The notes beneath the pieces were generated by a model that was given only the letters and a program-made list of their open reading frames with translations, ran no database searches and was not told the DNA's origin. A program made the position numbers and the translations under genes. 45,459 nucleotides of DNA from Parcubacteria group bacterium ADurb.Bin192. Its GTDB lineage: Bacteria > Patescibacteriota > Patescibacteriia > 2-12-FULL-60-25. The stretch is taken from positions 1 through 45,459 of the forward strand of contig MWCR01000011.1 of NCBI GenBank assembly GCA_002070095.1. The letters are read 5' to 3'. Shown piece by piece: positions 6,001 through 20,806 of this stretch. The first letter of the stretch is position 1. The number at the start of each line of letters is the position of its first letter.

Positions 6001-9000
6001 ACTTATGTGGGTGGCTATAACGTGGGTACCAATCCCATAACGGCCATGGAATTGCTGGGCAACAACTTGTATGTCGGTTCTTTAGCCGGTGTAAACGGTT
6101 ATGAATTCATGATTTTTGATGTGGGTGATCCGGCTAATGTAACCTATAAGGGGGGAGTTGATTTATATACTGATTATGTGCGCGGTATCCAGGCCGGCAC
6201 CGAATATGTGACGGTTTTGCAGGATAACGGAGTAGGCGGCGGAGCTGATTTATATACCATTAACGTTGCCAGCACGACCAATCCCTCGATTAATTCCAGC
6301 ATGGATGTGGGTGCGGGTGGTTTCCATACTCTGAAAGCCGATGGTACCAAGCTCTATATCGGCGGTACCAATGAAACCATTTCCGGGCAATATACTGCTT
6401 TGGAGTTCTTAATCTTCGATCAATCGGGCGTGATTACGCCGTCGGCCGATATCGGTGATTTGTTTGCCGGCAATATGAACGTGAGCCAGGACGCTCGCTT
6501 CAATAAAGATGTTTACATCAACAGCGGATTAACTGTGGGTGATTATGGTATCAATACTTTTGGTCAGTTGTCTGTGGCCAGCACTTCTAAATTCTTGAGC
6601 CTCATGCGCACTTCGGACATTAGACCGCTGACGCATGATACTTATGATTTGGGTACGGATGCCTTCAGATATCAGGATGCGTATTTTTCACGCACGGTAG
6701 AAACAGAACCAACCACGGCTGTCAGATTGGGCGGTTATAACGTGGGCGGCACGGTTACGGCTACTTATGTACAAGGTAAATATTTGTATGTTGGTACTCA
6801 GGACGAGACCGTCACCGGACGCACGGAAGATTTCCAGATCTATGACATCTCGGATCCAAATAATCCGCAGTACATATCGGGCGTGAGTATTGGCGGCAGT
6901 TATAGCGTCAATGCCATTCAGGTCATTGGTTCATATGCTTATCTGACCTATTTCATTAGTGGCAATAATTCCGGGGCTTTATATGTTTACGATGTGTCAG
7001 ACCCCAAGAATATTGTTTATAAAGACCATATTATCAATTCCATCAACAGTAATCCGTATGCTTTGGCCGTGAACGGCGACTACGCTTATTATCTTAGTCA
7101 TGACAGCGGCACCACCAACAGGTTGTCTGTGGTTAATGTTTCCAATCCGGGTGACATCACTTTGCAAAAGACTATTAACATGACAGGCGGCACCTTTCAA
7201 TCAAGTCTAACAGTAGCCAATGGCAATTTGTACGTGGGCAGTACCAATGTTACCACTTACAGCTCGTATGATCTGATAATTTTCAATCTGGATAATCCGG
7301 GTAATCCGGTTTATGCGGGGGGCGCAAATATTGATGCGAGCAATATTTACGAAGTTTATGTTTCCGGCCGTTATGCGTATGTAGGTACTACGGGTGATAA
7401 TATTTATATTGTTGATATTTCCAGCTCTACGGTGCCTGTTATCAAGAGTACAATCGATGCGGGCGGTAATGATATTCAGAAAATCAGGCTGATGGATAAG
7501 TATATGGTGGTTGGAACCGTTAATAATGGCACGGGCGCGGTCAATGAGGTTTTGGTCTATGACGTATCAAGTTCCACCAGCGTAGGTTCACCGATTATGG
7601 AAATTAATGTGGGCGGCTCTACTATTAGAGATATGGTGCTCTACGGCAAGAATTTAATTGTCGGTACTTTGAATGCCACCACCAACGCTGAAGATTTTCA
7701 AATTTATGATCTGGGCGGGATTAGGGCACAGGCTGCGGACATTGGTTCGCTTAGATCCAGTTTATTGAGAGTGACTGAAGATGGTTATATCGGTAATAAT
7801 TTGTATGCCGGACAAGGCGTGTATTCTGATTTGGGCGGCTTGCATACAACCGGTGAATTGTCTGTAAAGGCTACCTCTACTTTCACAAATCTACAAGCTA
7901 CGGGCCGGGTCAATTCTCACTGGCTGCCGTATTTGGACAGCACCTATGATCTAGGCAACGCCACCTACCGCTGGCGCAACCTTTACGGTGTCAACGCGAC
8001 CTTTACCAACCTTTATGTTTCAAATGATTCCAATACCAATGCTTTCATCCAAGATGGTAATAGTTTTGGCGAAATAGCCGTGCTGGGTACCAATGATAAT
8101 TATGCTCTTCACTTTGAAACTAACGGCGTCACCAAGATGAAATTGGGTACTACGGGCAACTTGGATATTGGAGATAGCATGATCGGCACGCCTCGCGGAG
8201 ACACATCTATTTTGTTGACCAAAGATGGAGGTGATGCGTTTTTGGAAACATGGTCATCAGATATGTCAGAAGGTTTGGTGATGCGCGGAGACGGAACGGC
8301 GGATTATGGTGTAGTGCGTCAATTATCCGGAACAGGTTACACCAACGGCTGGGCGCAGGGTTTGCATATTTATACCGGCAACAAAGCAGGTGTTGATGAT
8401 CCGATTATCTTTACCACCGGAGGTTTTGAAAGAATGAGAATCGGTGAGACCGGTAATCTGTATCCTACAGCTGATAACACCTATGACCTTGGTCTGCCAA
8501 CCAATGCTTGGAGAAACGGTTATTTTGATACGGCGGTTAATATTGGTTACCAATCAGGATTATCAAATGTAAAATTCCCAAGAACCGGATTTTTTACAGC
8601 CAGTCCCGCGTATAATGCAAGCGGTTTAGACGGTTTGGGTTTTGTTTTCACTGTAACCAGCACATTGGGCAATGATAATGGCATGTTTGTTGTAACCGAT
8701 AAAGACTATAATTTAGCCATCTTTGCCAAAAACGCTACTAGTGTGGCTCTGGTGGGTGATCACGTGGAAGAATTTAATATCACCTTGGGCGGAGACACGG
8801 GCCCCAGACAGCATAACTCATATAATTTAGGTTCTGACAATCGAGCCTGGAACCATATTTACTCCTCATCAACCTTATATCTTGGCCAGGCTACGGACGG
8901 TACGGCTATCAAATTCACCACTTCGGGTTATATGGCGGCCACGCCTCCGGGCACAGACGGCACCGCGGCTTTTGCCTTCTGGCCAACGGCCTATACACCG

Positions 9001-12000
9001 GGCAGTGCTTTGTTCGCTGTTTTGGACAGGCCCATGGGCGCGGGGGTGGGCGTGCCTTTGTTTATCCAAAACGCCACCAGCGTTGCTTTCGGCGGTACGG
9101 ATACGGAGGATGATTTCTTGATTACAACCTATGGTCATGTCGGACCCAAGACCACGTACACCTATGATTTGGGTTCTCAAGATTTGGCCTGGAGAAATTT
9201 GTACACGCAAAGAGTCTCGAGTACGGCTGTTACCGTCAACGGCTGGTTGTTGCAAACCGCCACCAGCCCGACTTTGGCCTCCAGTATAAATACCAGTGAC
9301 TCCAGCACCTTTAATTTGGGCGTATCCATTTCGGGCAACATGGTGGCCGTGGCTTCGTATAATAACGGGCAGGTCAGGTTGTATAGAATCAACCCGGACG
9401 ATTCATTGACTTATCTGACCAATATCGCATTTTCAGCTCCCAATGCGGTTAAACTGCTGGGCGACAGATTATATGTGTCAACGGAACTGGGGGCGTTTTA
9501 TATCTACGATGTTTCGGACATAAACAATCCGGTGTCTTTAGGATCCATCACGGGTACGGGCAATGGAGGCAAATGGTTTGATATCGTGGGCAGTTATATT
9601 TATCTGACTAAAGACTGGTCCAGTGATGAGTTTGAAATTTATGATATTTCCAATCCGGCCAATATTCAAAACGTCGGAGGTTATGCCACGGGCACCATGG
9701 ATTTTCGTCACATGAAAGTGTCGGGCAAGTATGCATATACGGCATCATATAGTAACAGCAATTGGCATAAAGGCTTAATGAAGTTTGATATCACCAATCC
9801 TAAAAAAGTGACCTATGTGACTAATTATCAGGATGATTATGTGGTGGGTTTTGATATTGTGGGTGATGTGGCCTATACCATCAATACGGCCGGCACTTTG
9901 CGTGCTTTGGATGTGTCCGGCGGTACCATCTCTTTGATCGGTTCAGCCGCCAAAACAGCTTCGGGCTATATCACCAAACTGATTGCGAGGGGCAACATGA
10001 TTTATGTATTGGGTGATAACAATTATCTCTCGATTTATAAGCACTTGGGCGGTTCCAATTTCCAAACCGTTTACACGGCCTCCAATGCCACGTATTGGGC
10101 TTCGGCCAAGGCCATGGATATCAGCGGGAATCGATTGGTGGTGCATGGCGGGAGTACGCGCAATGTGAGTTTGTGGAAATTGAACGGCACGACTTTGGAC
10201 AGCTTGGATGCGGCCAATGCCACGGTCGGGTCATTGCAGGTTTTGGAAGACGTGAACATCACCAGTGACTTGCTGATGGGCGGCAGACTGCATGCCATGG
10301 GCGGGGCTTTGTTTGAGGGGGATTCAGCGTTCAGAGGTGGAATTAAGAATGTTCCGCTTGATCCCAAGTTTAAATATTATTATGGTTCTCTTGGAATCGG
10401 AGGAGAGTCGTTGCGTACTATTGTCAGAGGCGACTATCAGTACACATTGGATTGGGGGGGTACTTACTTGGTTATTCATGATATATCCAATGGGAAAGAA
10501 TCGCCTTATCTAGTGGGAGCATTGTCGCTTGGTTTTACCGGAGGGGATTTATTCATAAACGGTCAGTACGCTTATGTCACGTACAATGCGGGCATTTTGC
10601 CGGGATATAAAGTAAACGTTTACGATATTTCCAATCCCACTAGTATTTCTTTGGTATCAAGCAGGGCGGTAGCGGCCGGAACAAACGGAACAACTAATTC
10701 AATTCTTCAAACGCGCGGCTCTTTGATGTATTTATTGACGAGTTACAGCGACTCCTGTGTTTTGAACACGGTTGATATTTCAGATCCGCGGTCAATGCGT
10801 TCTATAGATACATACACGGTTAGTGCGTCGTATGCTTGTCGTGACATGGCTATCAGAGATAAATATCTTTACGCGCTTACTACGGCTACTATTCATAAAA
10901 TAGACATAACAATACCACGCTCCACCTTTGAAGCGGGGAACGCTGGAACGGTTTCTGTTGATCAGTTGTATTCATTGGATATAAAAGGCAATTATCTCTA
11001 TGTTTGGAAGGCGAATTCAAACACGGGTTATTTGTCTACATACTACATTAACGATACGGAGCTCGAATGGTTTCATACGGCAACGGTGACTGGTGCGGGC
11101 AACGGTGAATTAAGGGTAGCTGGTGATTATGCCTATGTGGTTAATAAAACCACTACCGATGGTGTATCAATGTTGCATATCTTTGAAATTACCGGAAGTT
11201 CAGTCGCCGCTGTTCCTATTTTAAGCAAGAATTTGAGTTCTATGGGTGAGGATGCTTATAGATTCGATATTTCAGGCAATTCTTTATATTTAGCTTCTGA
11301 GGCACGTAGTAGGGTTTACGCTCTAGATTTAGGAGGTATAAATTCACATGCGGCCAGCATTGGCTCTTTGGAAGCCTATAGAGCTAATGTTAAAGGTGAT
11401 GCGAATATTGATAGAGAACTACACGTCTTTGGCGGTACTACTCTGGGCGGCAGAGTTAATATGAACAAAGGCGGTTCAGCCAACATGAACGGTGATACGG
11501 ATGATGATATTACCACCAGCAATCCCTATAATAATTACGTTATTTCCAACGAAGTCTTTTCCGTGATTGACGGACGGAATTTGACTTACTCGGATGCCCT
11601 GGATACGGCTTATATTTACAAAACAGCCTTGTTTGTGGCGGCTACGGGTACTTACTCTTTAGGCGCCGGTGATTATGGCCGTAATGTGGGCGTGGCCGTG
11701 TCCGTACCGGGTTTTGTTAATACGGGCGGCGGCATGTCGGGCGTGGGTGTGTTCAGTTATTTGAACGGCGGCGGCGATCCGAGAACCGGTATACCAAGCA
11801 TGTATTCAGCCTCCGGTCTTTTCGGAGTTGACAGCACGGTCAGCACGGCTCATGGGTTGTATGTATATTCCACTAATAACAGTGGTTTTTCCACCGGTGT
11901 GTTTATAAATAACAGCTCCGGTTCCAGTGCCAGGACTTTGCAGTTGTATCAAGGGTGCACCAGATCTTCAACTCCGATTTTTGAGGTCTATAGCAATTCG

Positions 12001-13872
12001 GGCGGGGATCGCGAGTTCTATGTTACTTGCGGAGGTTCGACCTATGCTGACGGGCCGTATTACAATACGGGTGCTGATTATGCTGAATACATGCGGCATG
12101 ATAATCAAGGGTTGGTTGCCGGCGATGTAGTTGCTTTGGATTTAACGAACGCCAGCTCTGTGACCATGGCTGAATATGGACTGCGTAATCAAACCGTGGG
12201 TGTGGTTTCAAGCAAGGCCAGCGTGGTTGGCAACGTTCCATCAGATAATGATTCCGATGCCCCCGTAGATGAAACGGAGTGGGTCATTGTCGGTATGCTT
12301 GGTCAATTGCCGACAAAGTTTTCAAATATTAACGGATCCATATCAGTTGGAGACAAACTCATGGCCGGTGATAACGGCTACGCGGTCAAAGCCGTGGGTT
12401 CGGGTATGGTCTTGGGCGAAGCTCTGGAGTCTGCGTCGGCCACGGGCACGGTTATGCTTTACCTGCATCCGCATTGGTGGGCCGGAGATTTGTTGGACAG
12501 TGAGGGTTCGGTCAATTACGTGCAAGATGACTTGGCTTTCAAAGCCACGGGTTTGGCCACCACTTCGACTCAAGGTTTTGGCTCAAATAATTTATACTTC
12601 AATGGTTCGGGTTGGAACTCAATCAACGGTCAAGCCGTGGCCACAGGTTTTGCCATGGGCAACCGCACCACCAATGCCACAACTTCTGTCTTTGAGATTA
12701 CTTATGCTACGGGCACGGCTGATTCCATGTTTGGTGCTTCGCGAACGATGTTATCCATCACCAATTCCGGTGACATGAGTGTGACGGGTGATCTAACCGT
12801 AGGCAGACGCTTGTATCTGGGTTCCAAGACCACGGGTCAAGGTTCAACCAGCACTTATCTGTTCGTGGATGATACTTTGTCGCCCACGTCCACCTACATC
12901 TCCACCAACGCGGACGGCTGGCAGACCGAGGATACTTATGATTACGCGGAAAGATACGAGTCTGATCAAGAATTGTCGCCTGGAGACATAGTGACGGCCG
13001 ATGGTTCGGGTATTAATAAAGTTAAAAAAGCCACTTCCATCCACGAACCGGTGCTGGGTATCGTGTCCACCAAACCGGGTTTTGTAACTGGCCGTCATTA
13101 TGAAGGCTGGTACCCGATTGCTTTGGCTGGCCGCGTACCCACCAGAGTTTCCACGCTTAACGGCGCCATCAAAGTCGGCGATCAATTGTCAGCTTCGGAC
13201 ATGCCGGGTGTGGCCGTTAAAGCCTTGGGCGCCGGTAATGTGATTGGTATCGCGCTTGAGTCATACGATAAATATGAAGAGGGGTTGATCAGTGTGTTCG
13301 TGAAGCCCGGTTACATGGGAGGCATGTTGAGCGAGCAGACGACTGCGGGTGGCACCACGATCATCAATCAGACTACCAATACGACCGTGGCCGACAAGGT
13401 AATTGAAGGCTTGGCTCTGATTAAGGCCGGAGCTTCGGAGGTCAACATTTCTTTCGCCACCTTGCAGGCTTATCCCATGATTTATGCCACACCGCATTCT
13501 TCGGTGGACGGCTCTTGGTACATTGCGAACCGCAAAGATAACGGCTTTACCATCATCACCTCCGAACCGCAGACGCATGACGTGGAATTCACTTGGATGG
13601 CCAGACCCATGAAAGCCGGCACCATTAAATTTGTGTCTGATAATACTTATCACGCGGTGGATGATTTAACCGGCCAGATGTATGGACCAATCAATCCTAC
13701 GGATACGGCTACGACCACGGAACCGGTTATTGATCCGGCCGCGACCGGCACCGAGCCACTGATAGTTACGGAAGAACCGCAGATCTTGCCCGAACCGCCC
13801 GAGGAAACGGCGGACACCCCTACTTCAACAACAAACACACAAAACCAAAACTCAACAACCACGCAGACTTAG
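1..13872 (+). CDS. Giant modular surface protein with LVIVD-like propeller repeats (5'-truncated by window edge)
   Basis: The frame is open from base 1, so the Met codon at 22 is internal and the gene begins outside the window. Residues are numbered from that Met. At least eight modules each hold a linker such as TAHSAETGSLNVL, a YDLG...WRNIYASGT motif (near 80, 506, 931, 1360, 1773, 2208, 2642, 2820, 2934, 3048) and a run of 40-50 residue blades of the type YAYV...IYDISNPASP, which resemble the LVIVD family. Modules at about 950-1280 and 1380-1690 are near copies. Two repeats at about 4019-4155 (DYAEYM...GDVVALD) and 4307-4440 (DYAERY...GDIVTADG) resemble the phage tail-fibre G2/IMC-type C-terminal domain. 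The tail is Pro/Thr-rich with no membrane anchor. It is probably a secreted or surface fibre or adhesin; the role is inferred. No terminator hairpin is evident right after the stop. Confidence 0.85.
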   Translation, partial: GFISTYFMGGVKTNALDADLATVGELMVRGNARFSNKLDVDGLLSVSGAYVGAQGLYALGNITTNGDLKVNGVATTTHIYPAANNTYDLGKYASSWRNVYVSSTVFTQNLWAKNITLGFNTPTLKWGVDDASGNDTRSIDIVNDYAYVAGYRDIRIYNISGSSTPSLVSTINASNLAYIPDIKVWGGYLYVMQGTANVFRVYDVRNPASPVLVDTQSPGVSVYSVAFSGNYAFVGTSNGNVRVYDVSDPDNLVYKTSVSVSASTVNEIFVQGKYAYVGTLNGSGNTDLVVVDISNPLAPTVAGGIDVGASAVQGVQVVGPYAYITTLSGGPAVNEEFIIYNISNPASITYVDGYDIDTSSADAIFVTDNYAYVSTLNAASIAGHTSSDLIIFDISNKASITLAGGVNVDASYIPNDIFVKGRYLHTITFNADAGTGTYEYLIYDLGGADFYTARIGSLEADSVTIDDSAKINNNLFVGSGISAGNGGVYTTGGLSAYSLSKLGHTQAITNNTYDLGGGGYAWRNIYASGTIMAPTVWAQDVDADNPTVTQVSLTAISNAYTYGAMDLAGNYLYAAQLTSNRIHIIDVSVPGAPSSTGSVDIGFPSRDIKVNGKYLYANIDYNFGNDGFRIVDISNPASPIYVGEARLSDSYYGLDVAGQYVYKLRQADNSLYIYDVSNPASPALKSTIAVQGTGLRDVMVQDRYAYVLNNGSASLSVIDVSNPGTPVFVATTTVPAAAETIVVQGRYAYISHSNATINFSIIDLKNPAAPVQIATLNTGSYPLGATMNTLFVAGKYVYLAGQSGTAAIRVIDVSNPYAPRVVATQARVDVRGVVVGGQYMYATYGNGYLGVYRMSGVETSALTAHSAQIGDLNILGDTTVYKQLTVKGAVSTGPLYALGSITTAGDLTVRGNSNLAGTLNVSGISTTTHIYPASNNLYNLGRPGYAWNNIYASGTAYLGGLNLTGGFTQGFAPNTTLTAYGPVALPDDGTDIAVQGRYAYVNRLWTPDYLEIYDITNPTAPVKVSQVGYSDGLTATTHLEVQGDYVYVIGGNANRMFIIDVSDPSKPVEVSTLTGFNSTPYDIKVRGQFAYVAEGAASGGLNVIDISNPRSPVRVKRLTLSTGSNWSHIYVEGDYAYMVSNDASRFAIVNISDPYNPVEKYNSATNISAPNEIVVKGRYAYIGNSTSLRIFDISSSTAPTMTANVSNPTYSPAALRVEGDYVYSVQGAGRYSIFNVKDAANAFLVTQQQIPSAAESMLAIDISGKYAFISTQTGLRVLDLKGAEFTSLTAHSAETGSLNVLTNAMVNQDLSVRGAIVSGAGGLYANGIFSAYATSSLLGRVGIGVINPVNFKLQVAGNIGPNANYTYNLGSLTNQWQNVYAGNFIAQPALNSTLTSYGPLSLSDDGYDVAIQGRYAYVTRAGTYFQIYDITNQSSPALMSQIQSSPTNSYFNHLEVQGDYAYALGGNVNKLFVIDISDPTNPYFRGSVTSWNSSVYDIKIRGKYAYVAEGAASGGLNIIDISDPDSPVRIKRLTLSTGSNWSHIYLEGDYAYMVSNDASRFAIVDITNPYNPVEKYNATTNISAPQEIQVKGRYAYILNGTSLRIFDISSSTAPTMAKSVAITSSAYSLRVEGDYAYIGTNGNSYAIVNVKDVANAYKVTEQIISGSGTIDAMDISGGYGVLLGGTNLYTLELKGADVASLTAHSAEAGSLNVLKNAQVNQDLVVRGGIKAGVGGIYTDGQMTAYATTSLLGRVGIGTINPVNFKLQVAGHVGPNANNTYDLGSSAYKWRNIYTNDLTTGDLNISPRNPTYVKGLDWGYVYAIDVMGKYAYLGHTQVGVNEFTIFDVSDNANPQALGGVDVGTNHIVYDVEVVGQYAYIAQTSDASGSKEIQLIDVSNPNAPTKVSGVNTAAAECNDVLVSGNYVYAACYNVTDSVADLYIIDYTDKNNPVVTTSTNITADNAYSLAKYGDYLIVGTDDATNYNVGADILIFNVANPYLATYVGGYNVGTNPITAMELLGNNLYVGSLAGVNGYEFMIFDVGDPANVTYKGGVDLYTDYVRGIQAGTEYVTVLQDNGVGGGADLYTINVASTTNPSINSSMDVGAGGFHTLKADGTKLYIGGTNETISGQYTALEFLIFDQSGVITPSADIGDLFAGNMNVSQDARFNKDVYINSGLTVGDYGINTFGQLSVASTSKFLSLMRTSDIRPLTHDTYDLGTDAFRYQDAYFSRTVETEPTTAVRLGGYNVGGTVTATYVQGKYLYVGTQDETVTGRTEDFQIYDISDPNNPQYISGVSIGGSYSVNAIQVIGSYAYLTYFISGNNSGALYVYDVSDPKNIVYKDHIINSINSNPYALAVNGDYAYYLSHDSGTTNRLSVVNVSNPGDITLQKTINMTGGTFQSSLTVANGNLYVGSTNVTTYSSYDLIIFNLDNPGNPVYAGGANIDASNIYEVYVSGRYAYVGTTGDNIYIVDISSSTVPVIKSTIDAGGNDIQKIRLMDKYMVVGTVNNGTGAVNEVLVYDVSSSTSVGSPIMEINVGGSTIRDMVLYGKNLIVGTLNATTNAEDFQIYDLGGIRAQAADIGSLRSSLLRVTEDGYIGNNLYAGQGVYSDLGGLHTTGELSVKATSTFTNLQATGRVNSHWLPYLDSTYDLGNATYRWRNLYGVNATFTNLYVSNDSNTNAFIQDGNSFGEIAVLGTNDNYALHFETNGVTKMKLGTTGNLDIGDSMIGTPRGDTSILLTKDGGDAFLETWSSDMSEGLVMRGDGTADYGVVRQLSGTGYTNGWAQGLHIYTGNKAGVDDPIIFTTGGFERMRIGETGNLYPTADNTYDLGLPTNAWRNGYFDTAVNIGYQSGLSNVKFPRTGFFTASPAYNASGLDGLGFVFTVTSTLGNDNGMFVVTDKDYNLAIFAKNATSVALVGDHVEEFNITLGGDTGPRQHNSYNLGSDNRAWNHIYSSSTLYLGQATDGTAIKFTTSGYMAATPPGTDGTAAFAFWPTAYTPGSALFAVLDRPMGAGVGVPLFIQNATSVAFGGTDTEDDFLITTYGHVGPKTTYTYDLGSQDLAWRNLYTQRVSSTAVTVNGWLLQTATSPTLASSINTSDSSTFNLGVSISGNMVAVASYNNGQVRLYRINPDDSLTYLTNIAFSAPNAVKLLGDRLYVSTELGAFYIYDVSDINNPVSLGSITGTGNGGKWFDIVGSYIYLTKDWSSDEFEIYDISNPANIQNVGGYATGTMDFRHMKVSGKYAYTASYSNSNWHKGLMKFDITNPKKVTYVTNYQDDYVVGFDIVGDVAYTINTAGTLRALDVSGGTISLIGSAAKTASGYITKLIARGNMIYVLGDNNYLSIYKHLGGSNFQTVYTASNATYWASAKAMDISGNRLVVHGGSTRNVSLWKLNGTTLDSLDAANATVGSLQVLEDVNITSDLLMGGRLHAMGGALFEGDSAFRGGIKNVPLDPKFKYYYGSLGIGGESLRTIVRGDYQYTLDWGGTYLVIHDISNGKESPYLVGALSLGFTGGDLFINGQYAYVTYNAGILPGYKVNVYDISNPTSISLVSSRAVAAGTNGTTNSILQTRGSLMYLLTSYSDSCVLNTVDISDPRSMRSIDTYTVSASYACRDMAIRDKYLYALTTATIHKIDITIPRSTFEAGNAGTVSVDQLYSLDIKGNYLYVWKANSNTGYLSTYYINDTELEWFHTATVTGAGNGELRVAGDYAYVVNKTTTDGVSMLHIFEITGSSVAAVPILSKNLSSMGEDAYRFDISGNSLYLASEARSRVYALDLGGINSHAASIGSLEAYRANVKGDANIDRELHVFGGTTLGGRVNMNKGGSANMNGDTDDDITTSNPYNNYVISNEVFSVIDGRNLTYSDALDTAYIYKTALFVAATGTYSLGAGDYGRNVGVAVSVPGFVNTGGGMSGVGVFSYLNGGGDPRTGIPSMYSASGLFGVDSTVSTAHGLYVYSTNNSGFSTGVFINNSSGSSARTLQLYQGCTRSSTPIFEVYSNSGGDREFYVTCGGSTYADGPYYNTGADYAEYMRHDNQGLVAGDVVALDLTNASSVTMAEYGLRNQTVGVVSSKASVVGNVPSDNDSDAPVDETEWVIVGMLGQLPTKFSNINGSISVGDKLMAGDNGYAVKAVGSGMVLGEALESASATGTVMLYLHPHWWAGDLLDSEGSVNYVQDDLAFKATGLATTSTQGFGSNNLYFNGSGWNSINGQAVATGFAMGNRTTNATTSVFEITYATGTADSMFGASRTMLSITNSGDMSVTGDLTVGRRLYLGSKTTGQGSTSTYLFVDDTLSPTSTYISTNADGWQTEDTYDYAERYESDQELSPGDIVTADGSGINKVKKATSIHEPVLGIVSTKPGFVTGRHYEGWYPIALAGRVPTRVSTLNGAIKVGDQLSASDMPGVAVKALGAGNVIGIALESYDKYEEGLISVFVKPGYMGGMLSEQTTAGGTTIINQTTNTTVADKVIEGLALIKAGASEVNISFATLQAYPMIYATPHSSVDGSWYIANRKDNGFTIITSEPQTHDVEFTWMARPMKAGTIKFVSDNTYHAVDDLTGQMYGPINPTDTATTTEPVIDPAATGTEPLIVTEEPQILPEPPEETADTPTSTTNTQNQNSTTTQT

Positions 13873-13989: not shown

Positions 13990-14090
13990 TGTCATTGCGA
14001 GCGAGTCCGACGAGTGTGGCAATCTACTAAGATACCGTGTTAATGAGCGAGATTGCCGCGTCTTCACCTTCGTTCATCCTCGCAATGACA
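13990..14090. repeat. F1 inverted-pair repeat (REPIN/MITE-like)
   Basis: A 101-bp element with perfect terminal inverted repeats TGTCATTGCGAG and CTCGCAATGACA. Inner halves GTGGCAATCT and AGATTGCCGC face each other across a roughly 20-nt loop. The same design recurs at 15944, 17733 and 20337. It lies just upstream of the GIY-YIG element and carries no gene. Confidence 0.85.
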
Positions 14091-14102
14091 TAGTATCAGT
14101 CA

Positions 14103-14505
14103 TGTCATTGCGAGGAGCTTGGCGACGTGGCAATCTACTGATATGCCAAAAACTTATTATGTTTATATTTTGACCAACAAAACCAACAAAGTTCTGTACG
14201 TTGGAGTAACCAATAATCTAGAAAAAAGAGTTTTTGAACATAAGAATAATATATCGGAAAAATCCTTTACGGCCACTTATAATGTACATAAATTGGTTTC
14301 TTTTGAAGAAACATCAGATATCAATAGTGCTTTAAATCGAGAGAAACAGATTAAAGCAGGCTCCAGACAGAAAAAATTAGATTTGATTAATAAGGTTAAT
14401 CCGGAATGGAAGGATTTGTTGGAAGGTTTGGGTTGTTAATAGATTGCCACGGTACGGCGTTCGCGAAAGCCGTACCGCGTCGTGATTACACTCCTCGCAA
14501 GGACA
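14103..14505 (+). mobile_element. GIY-YIG gene bracketed by inverted F1 arms, copy A
   Basis: The left arm (14103-14137) runs from TGTCATTGCGAG to GGCAATCTA. The right arm (14440-14505) begins TAGATTGCCAC directly after the stop codon, contains a TTCGCGAA-core palindrome and ends CTCGCAAGGACA. The only content between the arms is the 98-codon nuclease gene. The layout is that of an F1 pair whose loop has been replaced by a nuclease gene. A second copy lies at 17852-18254. Mobility is inferred; no transposase and no clear target duplication is visible. Confidence 0.6.
14143..14439 (+). CDS. GIY-YIG nuclease domain protein, copy A
   Basis: A 98-residue single-domain GIY-YIG (URI type) endonuclease-like protein. 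YYVYILTNKTNKVLYVGVTN near the N-terminus carries the Y-V-Y...Y-V-G core, followed by the LEKRVFEHK helix with its conserved Arg and the downstream Asn-Arg-Glu-Lys-Gln block. An upstream in-frame ATG at 14119 lies inside the F1 repeat arm, so ATG 14143, which begins MPKTYYVYI, is preferred. There is no extra DNA-binding domain, as is usual for stand-alone members of this family. It differs from the gene at 17892 at only two C-terminal residues. It is flanked on both sides by inverted F1 arms, which suggests the nuclease and repeat travel together. The DNA target is unknown. Confidence 0.88.
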   Translation: MPKTYYVYILTNKTNKVLYVGVTNNLEKRVFEHKNNISEKSFTATYNVHKLVSFEETSDINSALNREKQIKAGSRQKKLDLINKVNPEWKDLLEGLGC

Positions 14506-14516
14506 TGGTTACAGAT

Positions 14517-14567
14517 CGGCGAGTTTGCCACGCTTTATCGAGTTTAGCTCGATTCGCTCGCAATGAC
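14517..14567. repeat. Degenerate F1 half element
   Basis: A GTTTGCCACGC...CTCGCAATGACA arm follows the GIY-YIG element and has the same polarity as its right arm. It is absent at the equivalent position after copy B, so it is an additional insertion or remnant. Confidence 0.6.
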
Positions 14568-14576
14568 AAAATGACA

Positions 14577-14607
14577 AATAAAAAAAGCCCGACTTTCAGA
14601 GTCGAGC
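14577..14607 (-). terminator. Rho-independent terminator of lipoprotein 1
   Basis: Read on the minus strand, a GC-CGACT / AGTCG-GC stem with loop CTGAA is followed by a T run. It lies 7 nt past the stop at 14614. An almost identical terminator sits at 18266-18296 after the third lipoprotein. Confidence 0.85.
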
Positions 14608-14613
14608 GAGGCG

Positions 14614-15828
14614 CTAGAAGGCGCAGCGGCGCGCGTACAGATCGCGCGTGGTCAACAGGTAGGCAATCTCCTGTTCCGCGTCGTAGAGCATTTCCATGGG
14701 GTAGCCCGAGACTTCTTCGAGCAGGCTGGTCTGCTCCGTGAAGAAGCTCTCCTTGGCGTTGTAGCTCAAGCTTTCTTCCAGATGCGTAACCCATAGATTG
14801 GTGTAGTCTCCGTACAGATCCGTGAGGTGCGGGATGCTGTAGCCCGCGGTCATCACTTGGTTCTGTTGGTTGACCAGGAGCGGGCTGTAGCCCTTGGCAT
14901 TGTGGTTCACGAAGGCTCGCCAGTCCTGTAGTTGGCGCACGCGCCAGACAGCGGCGTGTTCATCCGCGAATTGACCGCTCACCCACAGATCGTTCAGATC
15001 CGCTCCGCGCACTTGGTGAATGTCGCGGCAAGACGCCGGTATCTGGGCGCTGTCCCATGTCTGGTCATCCAGATTGAAGATGAACAACAGGCCCTGAGTG
15101 GCCGCATGGTACTCGTCCAACAAACTGCCCGTGACCAAAAGGTGAGTTTCATCGACCGGCCAAAGGCGGTTGACACGGTAATCGGCCGGCTGTGCAGGCA
15201 GGGCGTATTCCGTCACAGTTGTCTGCTCTCTGATGACCAGCCTATGCTCGCCCGATTCGTGCTCGGCCAGCATCAGCAAAGCATCTCCCATGGGCAAGAG
15301 ATCGTTGATTTTTGCCCAGGGCGGCGCGGTGCTGATCTCGCCCCATTGTTCCTGGCGCCAGTGGTAGAGAGCGGGGCGGTCCTGGCTGTCAGCTCCCAGC
15401 ATGACCAACTGTTCTTGCATGACGCGCAGGGTTTTGCCGGTCGTTGCCGTTGGCGGCAGGTTGATTAGTTCCCAGCCTGGGTCAGTTTTTCTGGCCAAAG
15501 CCGAACCCAAGTCGCTGGACACGGTTACATGCAGACGGCCTTGGTAAAGAGCCAGCCCGCCCGTGCGGTTGACCGGCCAATCGTTCAAGATCAGCTGGCG
15601 CAGTTCATCGTCGCGTTGCCAATCCTCGCAGACCGGTTCAGCGTCGGGCGGTACAGCATCAGGCGGAGCTGAATCCGGTTCCGAAGTGCCGCAGGGCGGA
15701 GCGGAATTTTCTTCCACGCTCACATTCCCCCCGCATCCAATCAACACCATCAGACAGACATTACCGCTCAAGCCAAGCGTTATCGGTTTACGTGAGACGC
15801 AGGACGTGCGACGTGCGACGTTTTTCAT
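14614..15828 (-). CDS. Secreted lipoprotein 1, probable beta-propeller, function unknown
   Basis: 404 residues. The signal peptide ends in a lipobox, VLIGC (Cys32), followed by an acidic/Pro linker to about residue 65, then alternating short strands with Trp/Asp turns that suggest a beta-propeller. No catalytic motif is recognised. ATG 15828 is preceded by GAAGAGGTCGTC, a good SD site. The promoter region, SD and first 35 codons closely match the gene at 16170-17618, but the mature proteins do not. The charged start of the signal peptide (residues 4-13) is encoded by an F7 dispersed repeat in reverse. Codons are GC-richer than in ychF or galU nearby, which hints at a different origin. It is probably exported and anchored to the membrane surface. 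Confidence 0.8.
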   Translation of the reverse strand: MKNVARRTSCVSRKPITLGLSGNVCLMVLIGCGGNVSVEENSAPPCGTSEPDSAPPDAVPPDAEPVCEDWQRDDELRQLILNDWPVNRTGGLALYQGRLHVTVSSDLGSALARKTDPGWELINLPPTATTGKTLRVMQEQLVMLGADSQDRPALYHWRQEQWGEISTAPPWAKINDLLPMGDALLMLAEHESGEHRLVIREQTTVTEYALPAQPADYRVNRLWPVDETHLLVTGSLLDEYHAATQGLLFIFNLDDQTWDSAQIPASCRDIHQVRGADLNDLWVSGQFADEHAAVWRVRQLQDWRAFVNHNAKGYSPLLVNQQNQVMTAGYSIPHLTDLYGDYTNLWVTHLEESLSYNAKESFFTEQTSLLEEVSGYPMEMLYDAEQEIAYLLTTRDLYARRCAF

Positions 15829-15856
15829 GACGACCTCTTCAGTTTTGAAAGTGCGG

Positions 15857-15932
15857 TTTAAGCTATACCTCTAGTATAGCCTTGCCCATGGCAATCACCA
15901 AATATGGCAGAATAAAGCCTATGTGTCAACAC
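15857..15932 (-). promoter_or_regulatory. Promoter and inverted repeat upstream of lipoprotein 1
   Basis: Two overlapping candidates on the minus strand: TTGACA (15925-15930), 17 bp, CATATT (15902-15907); and TTGGTG, 17 bp, TATACT. The second -10 lies in a CTATAC...GTATAG inverted repeat (15863-15879) that may be an operator or leader hairpin. All elements are conserved at 17651-17719. Confidence 0.6.
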
Positions 15933-15943
15933 TTTCCTACCCT

Positions 15944-16067
15944 GTCATTGCGAGCGAGTCCGACGAGCACGCCACGGCGTTCGCGAACGCCGTGGCGTGG
16001 CAATCTGCTTAGATGCTAGCTAGATGAGCGAGATTGCCGCGTCGTGATTACACTCCTCGCAATGACA
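15944..16067. repeat. F1 inverted-pair repeat with internal TTCGCGAA palindrome
   Basis: A TGTCATTGCGAG...CTCGCAATGACA element. A CCACGGCGTTCG/CGAACGCCGTGG palindrome is inserted between GACGAG and GTGGCAATCT compared with the copy at 13990. A further degenerate half element with the same palindrome core follows at 16079-16141. Together with the promoter region these fill the 341-bp gap between the two lipoprotein genes. Confidence 0.8.
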
Positions 16068-16152
16068 GAATAACAGTCTTGCCATCACGAGGAGTTATGC
16101 GACGAGATATGGAATTCGCGAACGCCGTGCCGTGGCAATCGGTTTAAATAAC

Positions 16153-16171
16153 AAAAAAGCGCCGAAGCGCT
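16153..16171 (-). terminator. Terminator of lipoprotein 2, overlapping the stop codon
   Basis: On the minus strand AGCGC-ttcg-GCGCT is followed by TTTTTTG. The stem includes the TAG stop at 16170-16172. Confidence 0.8.
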
Positions 16172-17618
16172 AGTCGAAAGAAAGGGCGATGGCCAGAACC
16201 CGGCCGGTCGGATCGCTGGCATAAAGCGTGTTGCACCAGTCGTGGCCAAGATGGAAGAAGGCGCCGAAGGGCAACATGCAGTCCGTGCCTTGGCAGTCGG
16301 CTTGGAAGCCATTGCCGAAGAATTGGGCGAACTCATCATGTCCGGAAAGTTGGTACACGGTTTGCCACGCGGTTCCGTTCCAGGCCACCACGGCCGCGGG
16401 TTCGAGAATGTTGGAGCCCGAGCTGTCCATCGTCATACTGCGCAGACCGTAGACCACGCCGTTCGGAGCCTTGGTCATACCGGTCATGAAGGCCGGCATG
16501 TCTTGGGTGTTCAACAGCTCACCGGCCTGTGACAGGCTGTACATCTTGCGCGCCAATTGGTCGGCGACCAGCAGAGTATCGCCTTGTCCTTGCGAGACGG
16601 CCACACGCAAGCCGTGCGGCAAAACCTCATCAGCTTCCTGCTTGAAGAACGTGATGTTGTCCGCCGGCAGATTCAACTCGCCGGGCAACTCCGTGATCAG
16701 ATCGACTGAACCGTCTTCCGTGTTCACGGAGTAGACGGCCGCGGGTTGCGCGATGCCGGTGATGTTGCAGGGCGTGGGATCGTGACACATGGTGTTCAGC
16801 CTGGGCAGAGTCGTTGCTACCAGAGTTCCGTCGTCCAGGCAGAGCAAGGACGAAACGTTCCCCGGCAGCACGGCCTTGGCCAGCTTTTGCGTGTTCTTGC
16901 GCAGCTGCCAGACAGTATTTCCGCCATTGCTGGCCAAGTAGTAGCCGCCGGCGCATTCTGTCAGAGCGAAGTCCAACCCTGCGTAGTCCAGCAACTCTTG
17001 TCCGTTCACATTCACCGGGCGCTGTTGCCAGGTATTGAGCGCGAAAGCGTCACGCGCTTCCTGCTCCGTGAAGTAGCTGATGGCAACCAGTTGTTGGCCC
17101 GGCTTGGCGATGGTGAACAGCGGAGAGAAGAAGCTCTGTTCATCCACGCCGGTGTAGGGCGCACTCCACATCATCAAGCGGCTGAATCCGGCTTTGAAGT
17201 CCGTGAAGTCGTAGGCAGGCTGGGTGGGATACTGGGGAGTGCTGGCCGGGAACGTTCCTTCGTTGTCCAGCAGTTCCACCTTGGCGACCAGATCGGCAAA
17301 ACCATGGATCGTGCCGGCGCTCGAGGCGAGTGTCTTCACCTCTGCTGTGCGTCCGAGCCGGTCCTGTGTCCAGCAACTCATGCCCGGAGGTTTTTTACCG
17401 GGCGGGTTGGTGTTCAGCCCGCCGGCGTCAGTTTCCGGTGTCCCCGCGTCAGTCGAGGCGGGTTCAGGATTGGACATGGTTGGTTCAGGGCTGGTATCCG
17501 TTTCGAAATTCACATTCCCCCCGCATCCAACCAACACCATCAGACAGACAATACCGCTCAAGTCAAGCGTTATCGGTTTACGCGGGACGCAGGACGAGCG
17601 ACGTGCGACGTTCTTCAT
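16170..17618 (-). CDS. Secreted lipoprotein 2, propeller-like
   Basis: 482 residues from ATG 17618, chosen because the SD (GAAGAGGTC) and first codons match lipoprotein 1; an ATG 66 nt upstream adds a tail with no RBS. The signal peptide starts MKNVARRSSC with lipobox VLVGC (Cys32). A Pro/Thr/Asp linker leads to a soluble domain rich in strand-turn repeats. A central block (VNVNGQELLDYAGLDFAL ... TLVATTLPR) aligns by eye with VNVNGLDLQTYAGVTFDV ... LVVTTLPG of the third lipoprotein, so the two are paralogues. The fold suggests an SMP-30/gluconolactonase-like or NHL-like propeller, without visible metal-site proof. The C-terminus contains paired Cys. It is GC-rich compared with core genes. The ligand is unknown. 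Confidence 0.8.
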   Translation of the reverse strand: MKNVARRSSCVPRKPITLDLSGIVCLMVLVGCGGNVNFETDTSPEPTMSNPEPASTDAGTPETDAGGLNTNPPGKKPPGMSCWTQDRLGRTAEVKTLASSAGTIHGFADLVAKVELLDNEGTFPASTPQYPTQPAYDFTDFKAGFSRLMMWSAPYTGVDEQSFFSPLFTIAKPGQQLVAISYFTEQEARDAFALNTWQQRPVNVNGQELLDYAGLDFALTECAGGYYLASNGGNTVWQLRKNTQKLAKAVLPGNVSSLLCLDDGTLVATTLPRLNTMCHDPTPCNITGIAQPAAVYSVNTEDGSVDLITELPGELNLPADNITFFKQEADEVLPHGLRVAVSQGQGDTLLVADQLARKMYSLSQAGELLNTQDMPAFMTGMTKAPNGVVYGLRSMTMDSSGSNILEPAAVVAWNGTAWQTVYQLSGHDEFAQFFGNGFQADCQGTDCMLPFGAFFHLGHDWCNTLYASDPTGRVLAIALSFD

Positions 17619-17646
17619 GACGACCTCTTCAGTTTTGAGAGTACGT

Positions 17647-17719
17647 TTTAAGCTATACCTATAGTATAGCCTTGCTCGGAGCAATCACCAAATATGGCAG
17701 AAAAAAGCCCATGTGTCAA
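17647..17719 (-). promoter_or_regulatory. Promoter and inverted repeat upstream of lipoprotein 2
   Basis: TTGACA (17714-17719), 17 bp, CATATT (17691-17696). A downstream TATACT lies in the CTATAC...GTATAG inverted repeat 17653-17669. It is near-identical to the region upstream of lipoprotein 1. Confidence 0.6.
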
Positions 17720-17732
17720 CACCCTCCAACCA

Positions 17733-17839
17733 TGTCATTGCGAGGAATGAGTCCGACGAATGACGCGGCAATCTACTTAGACGCTAGCTAGATGAGCGAG
17801 ATTGCCGCGTCTTCACCTTCGTTCATCCTCGCAATGACA
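17733..17839. repeat. F1 inverted-pair repeat
   Basis: TGTCATTGCGAG...CTCGCAATGACA with opposed inner halves. Its right half and the spacer to the next arm are identical to 14046-14102, so the duplicated block extends upstream of the GIY-YIG element. Confidence 0.85.
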
Positions 17840-17851
17840 TAGTATCAGTCA

Positions 17852-18254
17852 TGTCATTGCGAGGAGCTTGGCGACGTGGCAATCTACTGATATGCCAAAA
17901 ACTTATTATGTTTATATTTTGACCAACAAAACCAACAAAGTTCTGTACGTTGGAGTAACCAATAATCTAGAAAAAAGAGTTTTTGAACATAAGAATAATA
18001 TATCGGAAAAATCCTTTACGGCCACTTATAATGTACATAAATTGGTTTCTTTTGAAGAAACATCAGATATCAATAGTGCTTTAAATCGAGAGAAACAGAT
18101 TAAAGCAGGCTCCAGACAGAAAAAATTAGATTTGATTAATAAGGTTAATCCGGAATGGAAGGATTTGTTGGCAGGATTGGGTTATTAATAGATTGCCACG
18201 GTACGGCGTTCGCGAAAGCCGTACCGCGTCGTGATTACACTCCTCGCAATGACA
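17852..18254 (+). mobile_element. GIY-YIG gene bracketed by inverted F1 arms, copy B
   Basis: It has the same organisation as 14103-14505: left arm, nuclease gene, right arm with palindrome, ending CTCGCAATGACA (an intact terminus, where copy A has AGGACA). The sequences are nearly identical, so the duplication is recent. Confidence 0.6.
17892..18188 (+). CDS. GIY-YIG nuclease domain protein, copy B
   Basis: 98 residues, identical to the product at 14143 except near the C-terminus (LLAGLGY against LLEGLGC). GIY-YIG core YYVYI...VLYVGVTN, then the Arg-bearing helix LEKRVFEHK. The start is ATG 17892, because the upstream in-frame ATG is inside the repeat arm. The stop codon is immediately followed by the right inverted arm. 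The near-identity of protein, flanks and spacing suggests recent duplication or gene conversion. It converges on the lipoprotein 3 terminator, as copy A does with the lipoprotein 1 terminator. Confidence 0.88.
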   Translation: MPKTYYVYILTNKTNKVLYVGVTNNLEKRVFEHKNNISEKSFTATYNVHKLVSFEETSDINSALNREKQIKAGSRQKKLDLINKVNPEWKDLLAGLGY

Positions 18255-18330: not shown

Positions 18331-20034
18331 TTACCTGCGGCGCAGACCCAGGCCGGCCAAGGTAGCCGCGCCCAGCGCGCCCAAGAGAGCGAACCAGACC
18401 CAGGGAGAAGTGCCCTCCGGAGTCTCGGCCATGGGTTCGTGAGCCGGAGGATAAGGCGCGCTTTGGGGCGCACTGCCGGCCGCTCCAGAGGTACCGGCCA
18501 TTCCTGCACTGCCGGCCGCTCCGCTGGCACCGGCTGTTCCGGTTTCCGCATCATCACCCGCTTCCGGCAAGCCCGCGTCGGGTTCTTCGCCCATGTCCAG
18601 AGGAATCTCGAACAGGCGGGCGGTGATGGTGTCAGACACGAACAAGAGGGGTGTGACATCGGGTACAACCTTGAAGTAGACGCCGATGGGTTGTTTGCAG
18701 AGGGGGACTCCGGCATCGGCGAACTCATCTGGGCATGGGATGGCGAACTTCCCCCAACTCATGTCGTCTTCATGGCCATCATAACCTGTAAGTTCAACAA
18801 CCTCTTCCCACACCAAGGGGTCTTCGTTCAGGGCGTAAATGGTCACGCCCTTGAGGATGTAATCAGGATCCTCTGGTCCCCCAGCGTTGCCCAAGATGGG
18901 TGGAGTCACCAAATATAGTACGTCGTTGGGCGCACTGATCAGAGCGACTACCAGGAGGGGCATGGAGGTGACTTCTTCCACTGTATCGCCGTCAGACGAG
19001 ATCTTGTACAGTCGTCGGGCGCCAACATCCCCCATCCAGAAACTGCCGTCTGCCTTGAGCGCCACCGGATAGCGAAAGCTGGTTGGCATGGCGTAAGGCG
19101 TGAAGGTGAATTCATAGCAGCTGGAGATGTTCTCATAGTCGCTGGGGATGGGCAGTGAGGCTATCTCGGTAACCGTGTGCGGTTCATCGATGGCGATCTT
19201 GATGAGTTTGGCAGGCAATTCAGGGGGAGGATTCAGGGGTGCGTTCTTGATGTAACCGGGCAAGGTGGTCACGACCAGGAATCCTTGAGGGTGAACCATG
19301 AGGGTCGAAGGGAGACCAAAACCTTCTGCCAGAATTTTTGGTTCCAGCCCCGGCCGCAATTCGTAGACCGCGTCATCAGAGCTGGTGGCGAAGAAGTAGC
19401 GGTTCAGCTTGGTCTCCACGTCAAAGGTAACGCCAGCGTAGGTTTGCAGATCCAGGCCGTTGACGTTGACCGAGTGAGGGATGAAGCAATCGATGGTCCA
19501 GTCCGTGCGCCAGTCAGGGAAGTGTTCATCGACGGTTACGGCCCCATTGGGGCTGTAGGTGACTGCGTACGGAGGCTCGGCTACAACCAATTGCTCGTTT
19601 TCGAGCTTGAGGTAGGGGGGTGTGAAGATGTGGAGGTCTGACGACGGACTGGTTGTTCCGAAGTCCACCTTGGGAATGACCGGTGGGAGAGCCTCCGCGT
19701 CAGATGCGCCTCCGTCCAGTTCGCCGTCCATGGTACGGATCATCGGGTCTTGCAGACTGATGCCCAGGATGGGCCCGCCGTTTTGCATGATGACCCGGGG
19801 TACACCGGCTTTGCCGATGACTCCTTTTTTCCAGACGTTGCCCGGCGTCCCGGCTTCTCCTCCTGATCCACCAACAGAAGTCCCTCCGTTGCCGGCTGTG
19901 CCTCCCATGCCTCCGGTGGCCGTCGTGCCGCCAGTACCTCCTCCCCCAGGTTCATCGCTCCCGCAGCCCAAGGGCAGGGTCAAGGCCAAAATGGCCGCCA
20001 GCAAGTACATCCAAGCGCGGTGCATGTTGTTCAT
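18331..20034 (-). CDS. Lipoprotein 3 with Gly-rich linker, propeller domain and C-terminal membrane tail
   Basis: 567 residues. Signal peptide with lipobox LPLGC (Cys24). A Gly/Thr/Ser-rich linker spans about 29-65. The large soluble domain is paralogous to lipoprotein 2 (VNVNG...YAG...TTLPG block) and probably propeller-like. A second Gly/Ala/Ser-rich spacer is followed by PWVWFALLGALGAATLAGL and a terminal RRR, a short hydrophobic anchor of the type seen in sorted C-terminal tails. There is no Cys or LPxTG motif near it. The start has a strong SD, AAGGAGGAGGAG, before ATG 20034. Carrying both a lipid anchor and a C-terminal helix is unusual. The Gly-Thr linker resembles those of myxobacterial lipoproteins, which hints at transfer but does not prove it. 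Confidence 0.8.
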   Translation of the reverse strand: MNNMHRAWMYLLAAILALTLPLGCGSDEPGGGGTGGTTATGGMGGTAGNGGTSVGGSGGEAGTPGNVWKKGVIGKAGVPRVIMQNGGPILGISLQDPMIRTMDGELDGGASDAEALPPVIPKVDFGTTSPSSDLHIFTPPYLKLENEQLVVAEPPYAVTYSPNGAVTVDEHFPDWRTDWTIDCFIPHSVNVNGLDLQTYAGVTFDVETKLNRYFFATSSDDAVYELRPGLEPKILAEGFGLPSTLMVHPQGFLVVTTLPGYIKNAPLNPPPELPAKLIKIAIDEPHTVTEIASLPIPSDYENISSCYEFTFTPYAMPTSFRYPVALKADGSFWMGDVGARRLYKISSDGDTVEEVTSMPLLVVALISAPNDVLYLVTPPILGNAGGPEDPDYILKGVTIYALNEDPLVWEEVVELTGYDGHEDDMSWGKFAIPCPDEFADAGVPLCKQPIGVYFKVVPDVTPLLFVSDTITARLFEIPLDMGEEPDAGLPEAGDDAETGTAGASGAAGSAGMAGTSGAAGSAPQSAPYPPAHEPMAETPEGTSPWVWFALLGALGAATLAGLGLRRR

Positions 20035-20806
20035 GATCTCCTCCTCCTTAAGAAGGTTGTTCGCTTTTCGAGGTACGAACCTGAGTGTCCGTTATCTTGC
20101 TTTTACCATGGTTAAGCGAAAATGTCCAGACTGCTTCATGAAGCATGTAACATGTAACATGTAGCACATAACATATAACATCGTCTCACATTAAACCTAT
20201 GTACCGCCTTCGGGCTTTCCCTCTCTTGGGTAAGAGAGGGTTAGGGTGAGTTATGCTTAGTGTCCCTCATAATCCCGCTTTCGTCATCCTGAATTCAGTT
20301 CAGGATCTCATCACTAAATCATTAAAACCACAGCCATGTCATTGCGGGCGAGTCCGACGAGCGCGGTACGGAGTTCGCGAGTGCCGTACCGCGGCAATCT
20401 ACATAGTCGACAAGCTTATGAGCGAGATTGCCGCGGCTTCACATCCGTTCATCCTCGCAATGACAGATGGCTTTAGAAACTGGATCCCCGCGTTCGCGAG
20501 GATGACGAAAAGACAGGCGTCATCCTGAATTTATTTCAGGATCTCATTACTCAACCAAGTCATTTCGACTGGAACGAAGGTGTAATGGAGAAATCGCTTT
20601 GGCTCATCGGACTTAAGGAATCTCTCCACAGAGCCTGCCCTGAGCGCAACCGAAGGGGTCGAGATGACAGTAAAGATAATGATTTAGAAAGTGAGATGCT
20701 GAACTGAATTCAGCATGACGGATAAAGTGCCAGGATGACAAAAATAAATGATTGAGTTGCGCTGATAATTGCTTTTTTTGCTTTATTCAGGAATAATTGT
20801 CTGACT
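20035..20806. repeat. Repeat-filled gap (F6, F8, F2, F1, F5, F2, F3, F4)
   Basis: No gene is supported. In order: lipoprotein 3 leader (20035-20130); F6/F8 block 20143-20281; F2 near 20283-20312; F1 pair with palindrome 20337-20465; F5 near 20477-20507; F2 near 20519-20550; F3 20558-20668; F4 20690-20722. The F8-F2-F1 order recurs at 39008-39215. Confidence 0.8.
20769..20797 (+). promoter_or_regulatory. Promoter of ychF (leaderless type)
   Basis: TTGCTT (20769-20774), 17 bp, AATAAT (20792-20797). The -10 ends 9 nt before ATG 20807, so transcription should start within a few bases of the start codon. AGG at 20789-20791 lies upstream of the predicted start site, so no SD would be transcribed. 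Confidence 0.5.

Follow-up and report, generated by a model that had tools for sequence, protein, structure and literature searches.

A clade of small GIY-YIG nuclease genes bracketed by tagged palindromes: a candidate autonomous unit behind dispersed bacterial repeats

Two near-identical genes for a small GIY-YIG nuclease lie between inverted arms of a dispersed repeat, F1, in a 45,459-nucleotide stretch of the genome of Parcubacteria group bacterium ADurb.Bin192 (contig MWCR01000011.1; the whole stretch is referred to as the window), where gene-less pairs of the same repeat also occur. This arrangement raises the question of whether arms and nuclease form a mobile element or whether the gene merely sits among repeats that are moved by other means. 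We consider it probable that the unit is mobile and autonomous and that its nuclease, acting structure-specifically, spreads the gene-less repeat pairs as well. The evidence below suggests the enzyme of one GIY-YIG clade as the so far missing agent by which a common class of bacterial repeats spreads.

Both genes are on the plus strand (14143..14439, TAA at 14437; 17892..18188, TAA at 18186), and their 98-residue products differ at two residues. The left repeats (14103..14137 and 17852..17886, plus strand) start with TGTCATTGCGAG and end 6 bp before the ATG codons at 14143 and 17892. The right repeats (14440..14505 and 18189..18254, minus strand) read TAGATTGCC...CTCGCAA(G/T)GACA, follow the TAA directly and end in GACA at 14505 and 18254, so that the tags point outward in both units; that of the first unit is a long-loop form whose tagged arm has one mismatch. 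These positions, the 6-bp spacing and the opposite orientation of the right arms agree with the initial annotation of the window, which had placed both genes between inverted TGTC-tagged F1 arms. The gene-less pairs that it listed were also seen, at 13990..14090 (inverted, tags outward), 15943..16067, 17733..17839 and 20337..20465 (none with an assigned strand), except that the second starts at 15943 and not at 15944. The two gene copies did not arise as separate arm-gene-arm insertions: the copied block is longer and includes a gene-less pair. The stretch 13990..14505 (plus strand), which holds a gene-less pair, a spacer and the repeat-gene-repeat unit, aligns with 17733..18254 (plus strand) at 96% identity over 524 alignment columns, and the block begins and ends precisely with its outer tags, TGTC and GACA. 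Upstream of the blocks the sequences diverge immediately, and downstream similarity resumes only at a nearby arm and terminator. Allowing at most one mismatch, the window contains 19 occurrences of TGTCATTGCGAG where 0.22 are expected, and GTCATTGCGAG occurs 95 times in this bacterium's 1.44-Mb genome (the own genome below) against none for a reversed control pattern.

Bracketing of this kind was also found outside the window. We built a profile (A1) from ten seed proteins, whose alignment consisted mostly of repeat-flanked proteins, and examined 80 loci in named genomes, the best 80 of 576 confirmed with this profile. The detector recorded GTCAT...ATCY palindromes, tags outward, within 200 bp of the gene. 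Repeats were present on both sides at 46 loci, upstream only at 13, downstream only at 9 and on neither side at 12. Both-side brackets accompanied 46 of 80 clade genes versus 2 of 612 other open reading frames (ORFs) at the same loci (Fisher p = 2.6e-47), and a repeat on any side 68 of 80 versus 32 of 612. A phylum could be assigned for 72 of the 80 loci, giving 24 phylum-rank groups, of which 19 contained both-side brackets. Chance as the origin of the arms or of the bracketing is ruled out by the 19 occurrences against 0.22 in the window and by the 46/80 against 2/612 brackets.

A second comparison was made among relatives of the same class, with 100 GIY-YIG genes drawn from 30 of 38 searched genomes (40 loci and 60 more taken down the match list). 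The profile score split these genes cleanly into 36 clade members (at least 112 bits) and 64 others (at most 84 bits), the latter including a UvrC-like gene and a fragment. The 36 clade genes had repeats on both sides in 15 cases, on one side in 14 and on neither in 7. Any repeat was found beside 29 of 36 clade genes and beside none of the 64 others (p = 6.7e-19), and beside 20 of 26 clade genes when the ten seed proteins were excluded. Three further GIY-YIG genes outside the clade (29-51 bits), which were skipped and are not in these counts, also had no repeat. Since 0/64 genes outside the clade compare with 29/36 inside it, the link belongs to one clade and not to GIY-YIG nucleases at large; a general GIY-YIG/repeat link is ruled out. 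The enrichment anticipated from the window was borne out in both comparisons.

The initial annotation had framed this enrichment in terms of F1 arms, and here the result was wider than the claim: clade genes are flanked by a superfamily of tagged palindromes, with F1 proper beside only part of the family. Even in the own genome F1 is one of several arm families beside clade genes. At L002/L003, CGTCATCCTGAAC...TTCAGGATCTC palindromes lie on both sides of the gene; at L009, GTCATTCC...GGAATCC palindromes do so; and at L004, GTCATTCCC...GGGAATCC repeats occur in a single orientation. The repeats at these loci share the general form GTC-AT-stem-loop-stem-AT-CY. F1 itself carries the tag TGTC and the tail CTA, and its 5-bp stem encloses a long and variable loop; 8-bp stems are found at L009, L031 and other loci, and a CCA tail is common among long-stem repeats. 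A pyrimidine (T or C) preceded GTC in 375 of 393 detections at the 80 loci (overlapping detections counted separately), at 44 of 46 left ends and at all 45 readable right ends. Bases farther outside the tags showed no clear preference beyond this Y, and from sequence we place the putative element boundary at YGTC. At L002, L029 and L033 the reading frame enters the right-hand repeat, and the last residues (e.g. DPETSSG, DPSLRSG) are repeat-encoded.

These palindromes resemble the repetitive extragenic palindromes (REPs) with CGTC tags (PMC3733652, Di Nocera 2013), which include Neisseria dRS3 and Rickettsia RPE-4/RPE-6. In the available text of that study they are described as having a CGTC, TGTC or CCTC tag, a stem of 8-9 bp almost always beginning with AT, a loop of 4-5 nucleotides and a tail near CCA, and as forming mostly tags-out dimers. 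The long-stem repeats beside many clade genes fit this description. F1 fits it by its TGTC tag and deviates in its 5-bp stem, long loop and CTA tail; the window pairs match the tags-out dimers, while the 80 loci are mixed in orientation. The arms belong to a tagged-palindrome superfamily resembling CGTC-tagged REPs, with many members matching, and we class F1 as a short-stem relative rather than a strict member. The same text reports CGTC-type palindromes from five phyla, states that they "apparently lack a dedicated transposase" and suggests that their own elements may have died out early; it names no enzyme for them and, as far as available, does not mention GIY-YIG proteins (PMC3733652).

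The gene-less repeats themselves were more abundant where the gene was present. In 192 genomes of the phylum, each at least 90% complete, the clade gene (called at E 1e-25) was found in 58, with as many as 8 matches in one genome and internal stops in some of the matches. At least four copies of GTCATYCYG...CRGRATCY were present in 32 of 58 gene-bearing versus 4 of 134 gene-less genomes (p = 2.3e-16, in a test that leaves relatedness in place), and at least one copy in 43 of 58 versus 15 of 134. Blind 20-kb samples were taken from 20 gene-bearing genomes in the same-phylum rows and from 20 gene-less ones listed; they contained 20 versus 3 repeats (p = 0.024), and 3 versus 4 after shuffling. 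Per-genome and per-family counts were transcribed by hand from the search output. The proposed tie between gene-less repeats and the nuclease gene is supported by these counts as a statistical association.

Whole units were present or absent between relatives. At locus C4 of the own genome (L009), six of eight congeners align on either side of the site, with no gene and no detected repeat in between; G008 matches the right flank only and G006 neither flank properly. At locus C14 (L004), the four congeners examined (G002, G003, G005 and G006) have no gene and no repeats between the same neighbours. Azospirillum lipoferum 4B carries a repeat-repeat-gene-repeat-repeat array between sufB and sufC (one of the four repeats read by eye), and the plasmids of A. 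oryzae, A. ramasamyi and strain B510 have no such unit at sufB-sufC. These three cases indicate gain or loss of the whole unit, and gain is favoured because several relatives agree in having no unit. The empty sites that an autonomous element would leave were seen at two own-genome loci and on three Azospirillum plasmids. Gene-bearing and gene-less copies end alike, and the unit is present or absent as a whole, as for an insertion sequence and its miniature inverted-repeat transposable elements (MITEs). In these respects the reading of arms plus nuclease as an autonomous element with gene-less derivatives gained support and was widened beyond F1 by the enrichment, the empty sites and the repeat load.

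A Sphingobium site was less simple. Three plasmids have a repeat-gene-repeat unit between fnrL and a regulator gene; in TomTYG73 the gene has a one-base gap and is unannotated. At the gene-less site TomTYG64 and TomTYG74 have a single palindrome tagged at both ends and no clean gap, TomTYG72 has another palindrome and TomTYG65 none. This case can be explained by entry of the unit into a palindrome or by a deletion within an inverted pair that removed it, the latter being the route by which "double foot" GTAG REPs are reported to arise in the available text of PMC6006769. In 50-kb stretches of two Sphingobium plasmids compared for fresh repeat insertions there was one differing repeat and no clean junction. 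In Shinella, gene-bearing and gene-less plasmids had diverged too far to give a clean empty site.

The main rival is that the repeats are the target and not the vehicle: the nuclease would cut gene-less repeats or pairs, and recombination would copy the gene between pre-existing arms, as in homing. GIY-YIG domains are classic homing nucleases in the 2006 superfamily survey as available (PMC1564403), and TomTYG64 and TomTYG74 have their doubly tagged palindrome where relatives carry repeat-gene-repeat. A paralogous site in the window can be read in the same way. The intergenic stretches 15781-16104 and 17571-17876 are 78% identical over 332 columns, and this homology enters the left repeat of the second gene unit and stops inside it; at the paralogous site the gene-less pair is present, followed by a degenerate repeat at about 16080-16141 (read by eye), and the gene is absent. 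We nevertheless regard homing as unlikely. The empty sites at C4, at C14 and in Azospirillum have no detected repeat, homing leaves the multiplication of gene-less pairs unexplained, and a doubly tagged palindrome can come from deletion inside an inverted pair, as reported for GTAG REPs (PMC6006769, available text).

We next compared repeat type with nuclease lineage in a tree of the 126 of 192 proteins that scored at least 90 (78 of the 80 named loci, 12 from plasmids and 36 from relatives; L099 and L112, the two omitted, have stops inside the match). Repeats were classed by stem as long (at least 7 bp) or short (5-6 bp), which labelled 100 of the 126 rows. Repeat class changed 9 times on the tree compared with a mean of 33 and a minimum of 27 in 300 shuffles, and still 9 times after the columns of the C-terminal-side motif described below were removed (shuffled 33, minimum 25 in 200 shuffles). 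The three-base repeat type tracked the tree less closely (47 changes, 60 shuffled), and host phylum only loosely (37 changes, 48 shuffled, in 70 rows, with a different number of states that makes the values not directly comparable). Both arms of a gene were of the same class in 63 of 65 cases. At distances above 300 bp, repeats still shared the class of the gene in 99 of 113 cases, and the majority class agreed at 26 of 29 loci. On the C-terminal side, R-x-W-K was present in 43 of 47 long-stem genes and R-x-K/R-K in 47 of 53 short-stem genes; this W/K motif is a lead for repeat specificity in the sequences, not proof of it.

These results bear on a weaker alternative, in which the gene is simply carried in surroundings rich in repeats, as cargo, and a REP-associated tyrosine transposase (RAYT), another transposase or host recombination moves the repeats. 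HUH enzymes are known to cut REPs (PMC6006769, available text), and the own genome has one IS200-type Y1 transposase adjoining an F1 pair. That transposase is not bracketed by F1 arms, in a search of the own genome that covered the Y1 family only; the bracket is orientation-specific and confined to one GIY-YIG clade; and repeat class follows the nuclease tree closely (9 versus 33) and host phylum loosely. In the available text of PMC3733652, no tyrosine transposase gene of the named CGTC-bearing species is flanked by CGTC repeats. We therefore consider the cargo explanation improbable, and more so than homing. The Y1 gene (L208, C5:1-2107), the only one of its kind in the own genome, lies beside its F1 pair near a contig end and was perhaps inserted next to an F1 repeat; a RAYT as driver in the own genome was rejected for its want of F1 brackets. 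Weaker still, and very improbable, is a domesticated hairpin-processing or repair enzyme that stabilises palindromes and is flanked by them for regulation: the fold is Slx1-like and repeats beside a gene can serve as terminators, but presence is patchy (58/192 genomes), genomes hold up to 8 matches, some with internal stops, and loci are present or absent between relatives.

The window protein matched Pfam GIY-YIG (PF01541) at E 2.6e-16, the only other Pfam match being a weak one to T5orf172. In the numbering of L009, Tyr10, Gly23, Thr25, Arg31, His35, Glu56, Glu68 and Lys72 were invariant in 126 of 126 proteins and Tyr21 was conserved in 125; these include the Tyr, Tyr-x-Gly, Arg and Glu that we take to be the catalytic residues of the GIY-YIG family. 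An AlphaFold model (predicted local distance difference test score, pLDDT, 92.3) was nearest to the UPF0213 protein BH0048 by Foldseek (E 3e-4, the only match below 0.001), which was also the best sequence match in the PDB (E 3e-7). Slx1 structures followed (E from 5e-3), branched or 5'-flap DNA being present in some of them, and the titles of the Slx1 entries describe enzymes that cut branched DNA. By analogy with Slx1-type cutting, a hairpin or fork is the natural guess for the substrate of the clade nuclease. A phage origin was not supported, as a single tblastn search with the L009 protein against 50,697 phage records gave no match at 1e-5. At L009 position 87 the Asn of an NPxWxDL motif is invariant in all 122 rows that have a residue at this position. 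According to the available text of PMC1564403, the UvrC/homing lineage is marked by a C-terminal Asn that Slx1-like proteins do not have, and Asn87 may correspond to it.

We propose the following model of an autonomous unit. The element would have the form YGTC-palindrome, GIY-YIG gene, palindrome-GACR, and the window would hold two copies. Its 98-residue product, a putative stand-alone Slx1-like GIY-YIG nuclease, would recognise the tagged palindromes of its element. The recognised form would most likely be a hairpin or cruciform, arising at replication forks where DNA is single-stranded or branched, and the cut would fall at or beside the YGTC tag (the foot). Host repair would then help to copy or move the stretch between two outward tags into another intergenic site. 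Gene-less inverted pairs, with the same kind of ends, may be non-autonomous passengers of the clade nuclease, as REPINs are of RAYTs. We infer the nuclease activity, hairpin recognition, cut site, strand chemistry and insertion junctions, and likewise that the clade protein itself, and not another, drives movement. About as likely as not is the further step, that this is a new class of prokaryotic mobile element, spread over many bacterial phyla, with a minimal GIY-YIG hairpin-specific transposase as its sole protein, which is the dedicated mobiliser of CGTC-type palindromes and in which the C-terminal motif takes part in the choice of repeat class.

Several observations weigh against an autonomous unit. 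No repeat was detected beside 12 of 80 clade genes at the named loci and 7 of 36 among same-class relatives, although five of the 12 had a strong inverted repeat of other sequence across the gene (score at least 19; a score of 18 was reached by 13 of 612 controls). The window itself holds a counter-example: a third gene of the clade (L005, 31496..31786, plus strand) has no tagged palindrome detected within 200 bp. Short GTGAAG-AGTCTC-like repeats, seen by eye on both sides of this gene, are perhaps a further repeat family. Of the gene-bearing genomes, 15 of 58 had no GTCATYCYG...CRGRATCY (one, G020, has other repeat families), and four gene-less genomes had at least four copies. Relatedness is not removed from the 192-genome comparison, and in the 13 families with both states the gene-bearing mean was higher in 8, lower in 2 and tied in 3 (p = 0.055). 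At the 80 loci, repeats lying within 80 bp of each other were arranged tags-out in 65 cases, tags-in in 49 and in tandem in 22. The W/K motif has only 2-3 supported independent changes, and independent-pair tests of it were underpowered. The Sphingobium site with its doubly tagged palindrome gave no clean gap, and at the own-genome loci the exact insertion junction or target duplication was unreadable, the relatives being about 65-80% identical.

The closest functional parallel is the REPIN/RAYT (TnpA-REP, "REPtron") system. Both have short tagged inverted palindromes, a cognate enzyme gene flanked by them, dispersed gene-less copies and a repeat type that follows enzyme lineage. They differ in that the enzyme of the window type is a GIY-YIG protein and not an HUH Y1 transposase, the tag is YGTC and not GTAG, and the clade gene often lies directly between two repeats, with several copies per genome possible. 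REPtrons are also described as apparently not transposing as a unit (PMC6006769, available text), whereas the GIY-YIG units are absent together with their arms from empty sites. The GIY-YIG unit would, by this analogy, work like a REPIN-RAYT system without being a member of it. Stand-alone UPF0213 or prokaryotic Slx1-like GIY-YIG proteins share the fold, a similar size and related sequence with the clade protein, but genes that read as UPF0213-like are among the 64 other GIY-YIG genes of the same genomes, none of which has such repeats. Homing endonucleases belong to the same nuclease superfamily and share the patchy distribution; the clade genes differ in being intergenic, with little beyond the domain and with inverted-palindrome ends, and none was seen in an intron or intein.

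A link between GIY-YIG nucleases and REP-type repeats was not found among the top-listed papers of an open-access library, judged by title, abstract or term counts, a scope that takes in neither subscription papers nor preprints. It is absent from the available text of the 2006 superfamily survey (PMC1564403) and, by term search of the text available, from RepRanger 2025 (PMC12306157) and a 2024 MITE review (PMC10969869); the only paper found with both kinds of term, PMC9465073, lists RayT and a GIY-YIG gene in one pangenome table, unlinked in the available part. The link is likely, although not certainly, new to the literature. If the clade enzyme moves CGTC-type palindromes, a 100-residue protein and a 30-base hairpin would allow a test of a question open since 2013 (PMC3733652, as available). 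Another nuclease fold would join the drivers of small DNA elements, repeat-plus-enzyme systems of the REPIN type would have arisen with an unrelated enzyme too, and a function would be given to genes labelled "GIY-YIG nuclease family protein", "excinuclease ABC subunit C" or "hypothetical protein". Should GIY-YIG transposition be shown, it would constitute a new class beyond the known repeat-plus-enzyme kind.

Elsewhere in the window, an ORF of 4616 codons (22-13872) occupies the first third. Long minus-strand ORFs follow in succession (14614-15828, 16170-17684 and 18331-20034), with repeat pairs in the gaps between them, and the first two resemble each other in their upstream stretches (the 78% identity over 332 columns given above). 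The repeats may have been carried along by a tandem duplication.

At the 12 plasmid loci, the main detector scored no repeat in seven. With relaxed settings, palindromes were seen at all seven within a distance of about 220 bp, tags outward on both sides at L121, L123, L124 and L131 only (4/7), both facing one way at L130, and a single palindrome on one side at L122 and L132. The relaxed scan gave no palindrome at L127, though the main detector had counted this locus; L127 (Planktothrix agardhii plasmid p1) is a unit with short-stem repeats between a type IIL restriction gene and DISARM drmA. Several plasmid-collection records of 2-3.7 Mb (L129, CP090106.1 and NZ_CP104131.1) resemble chromosomes filed as plasmids. 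A Neisseria gonorrhoeae record among these has a clade gene amid GTCATTCCC palindromes, in line with the published equivalence of dRS3 and CGTC-1.

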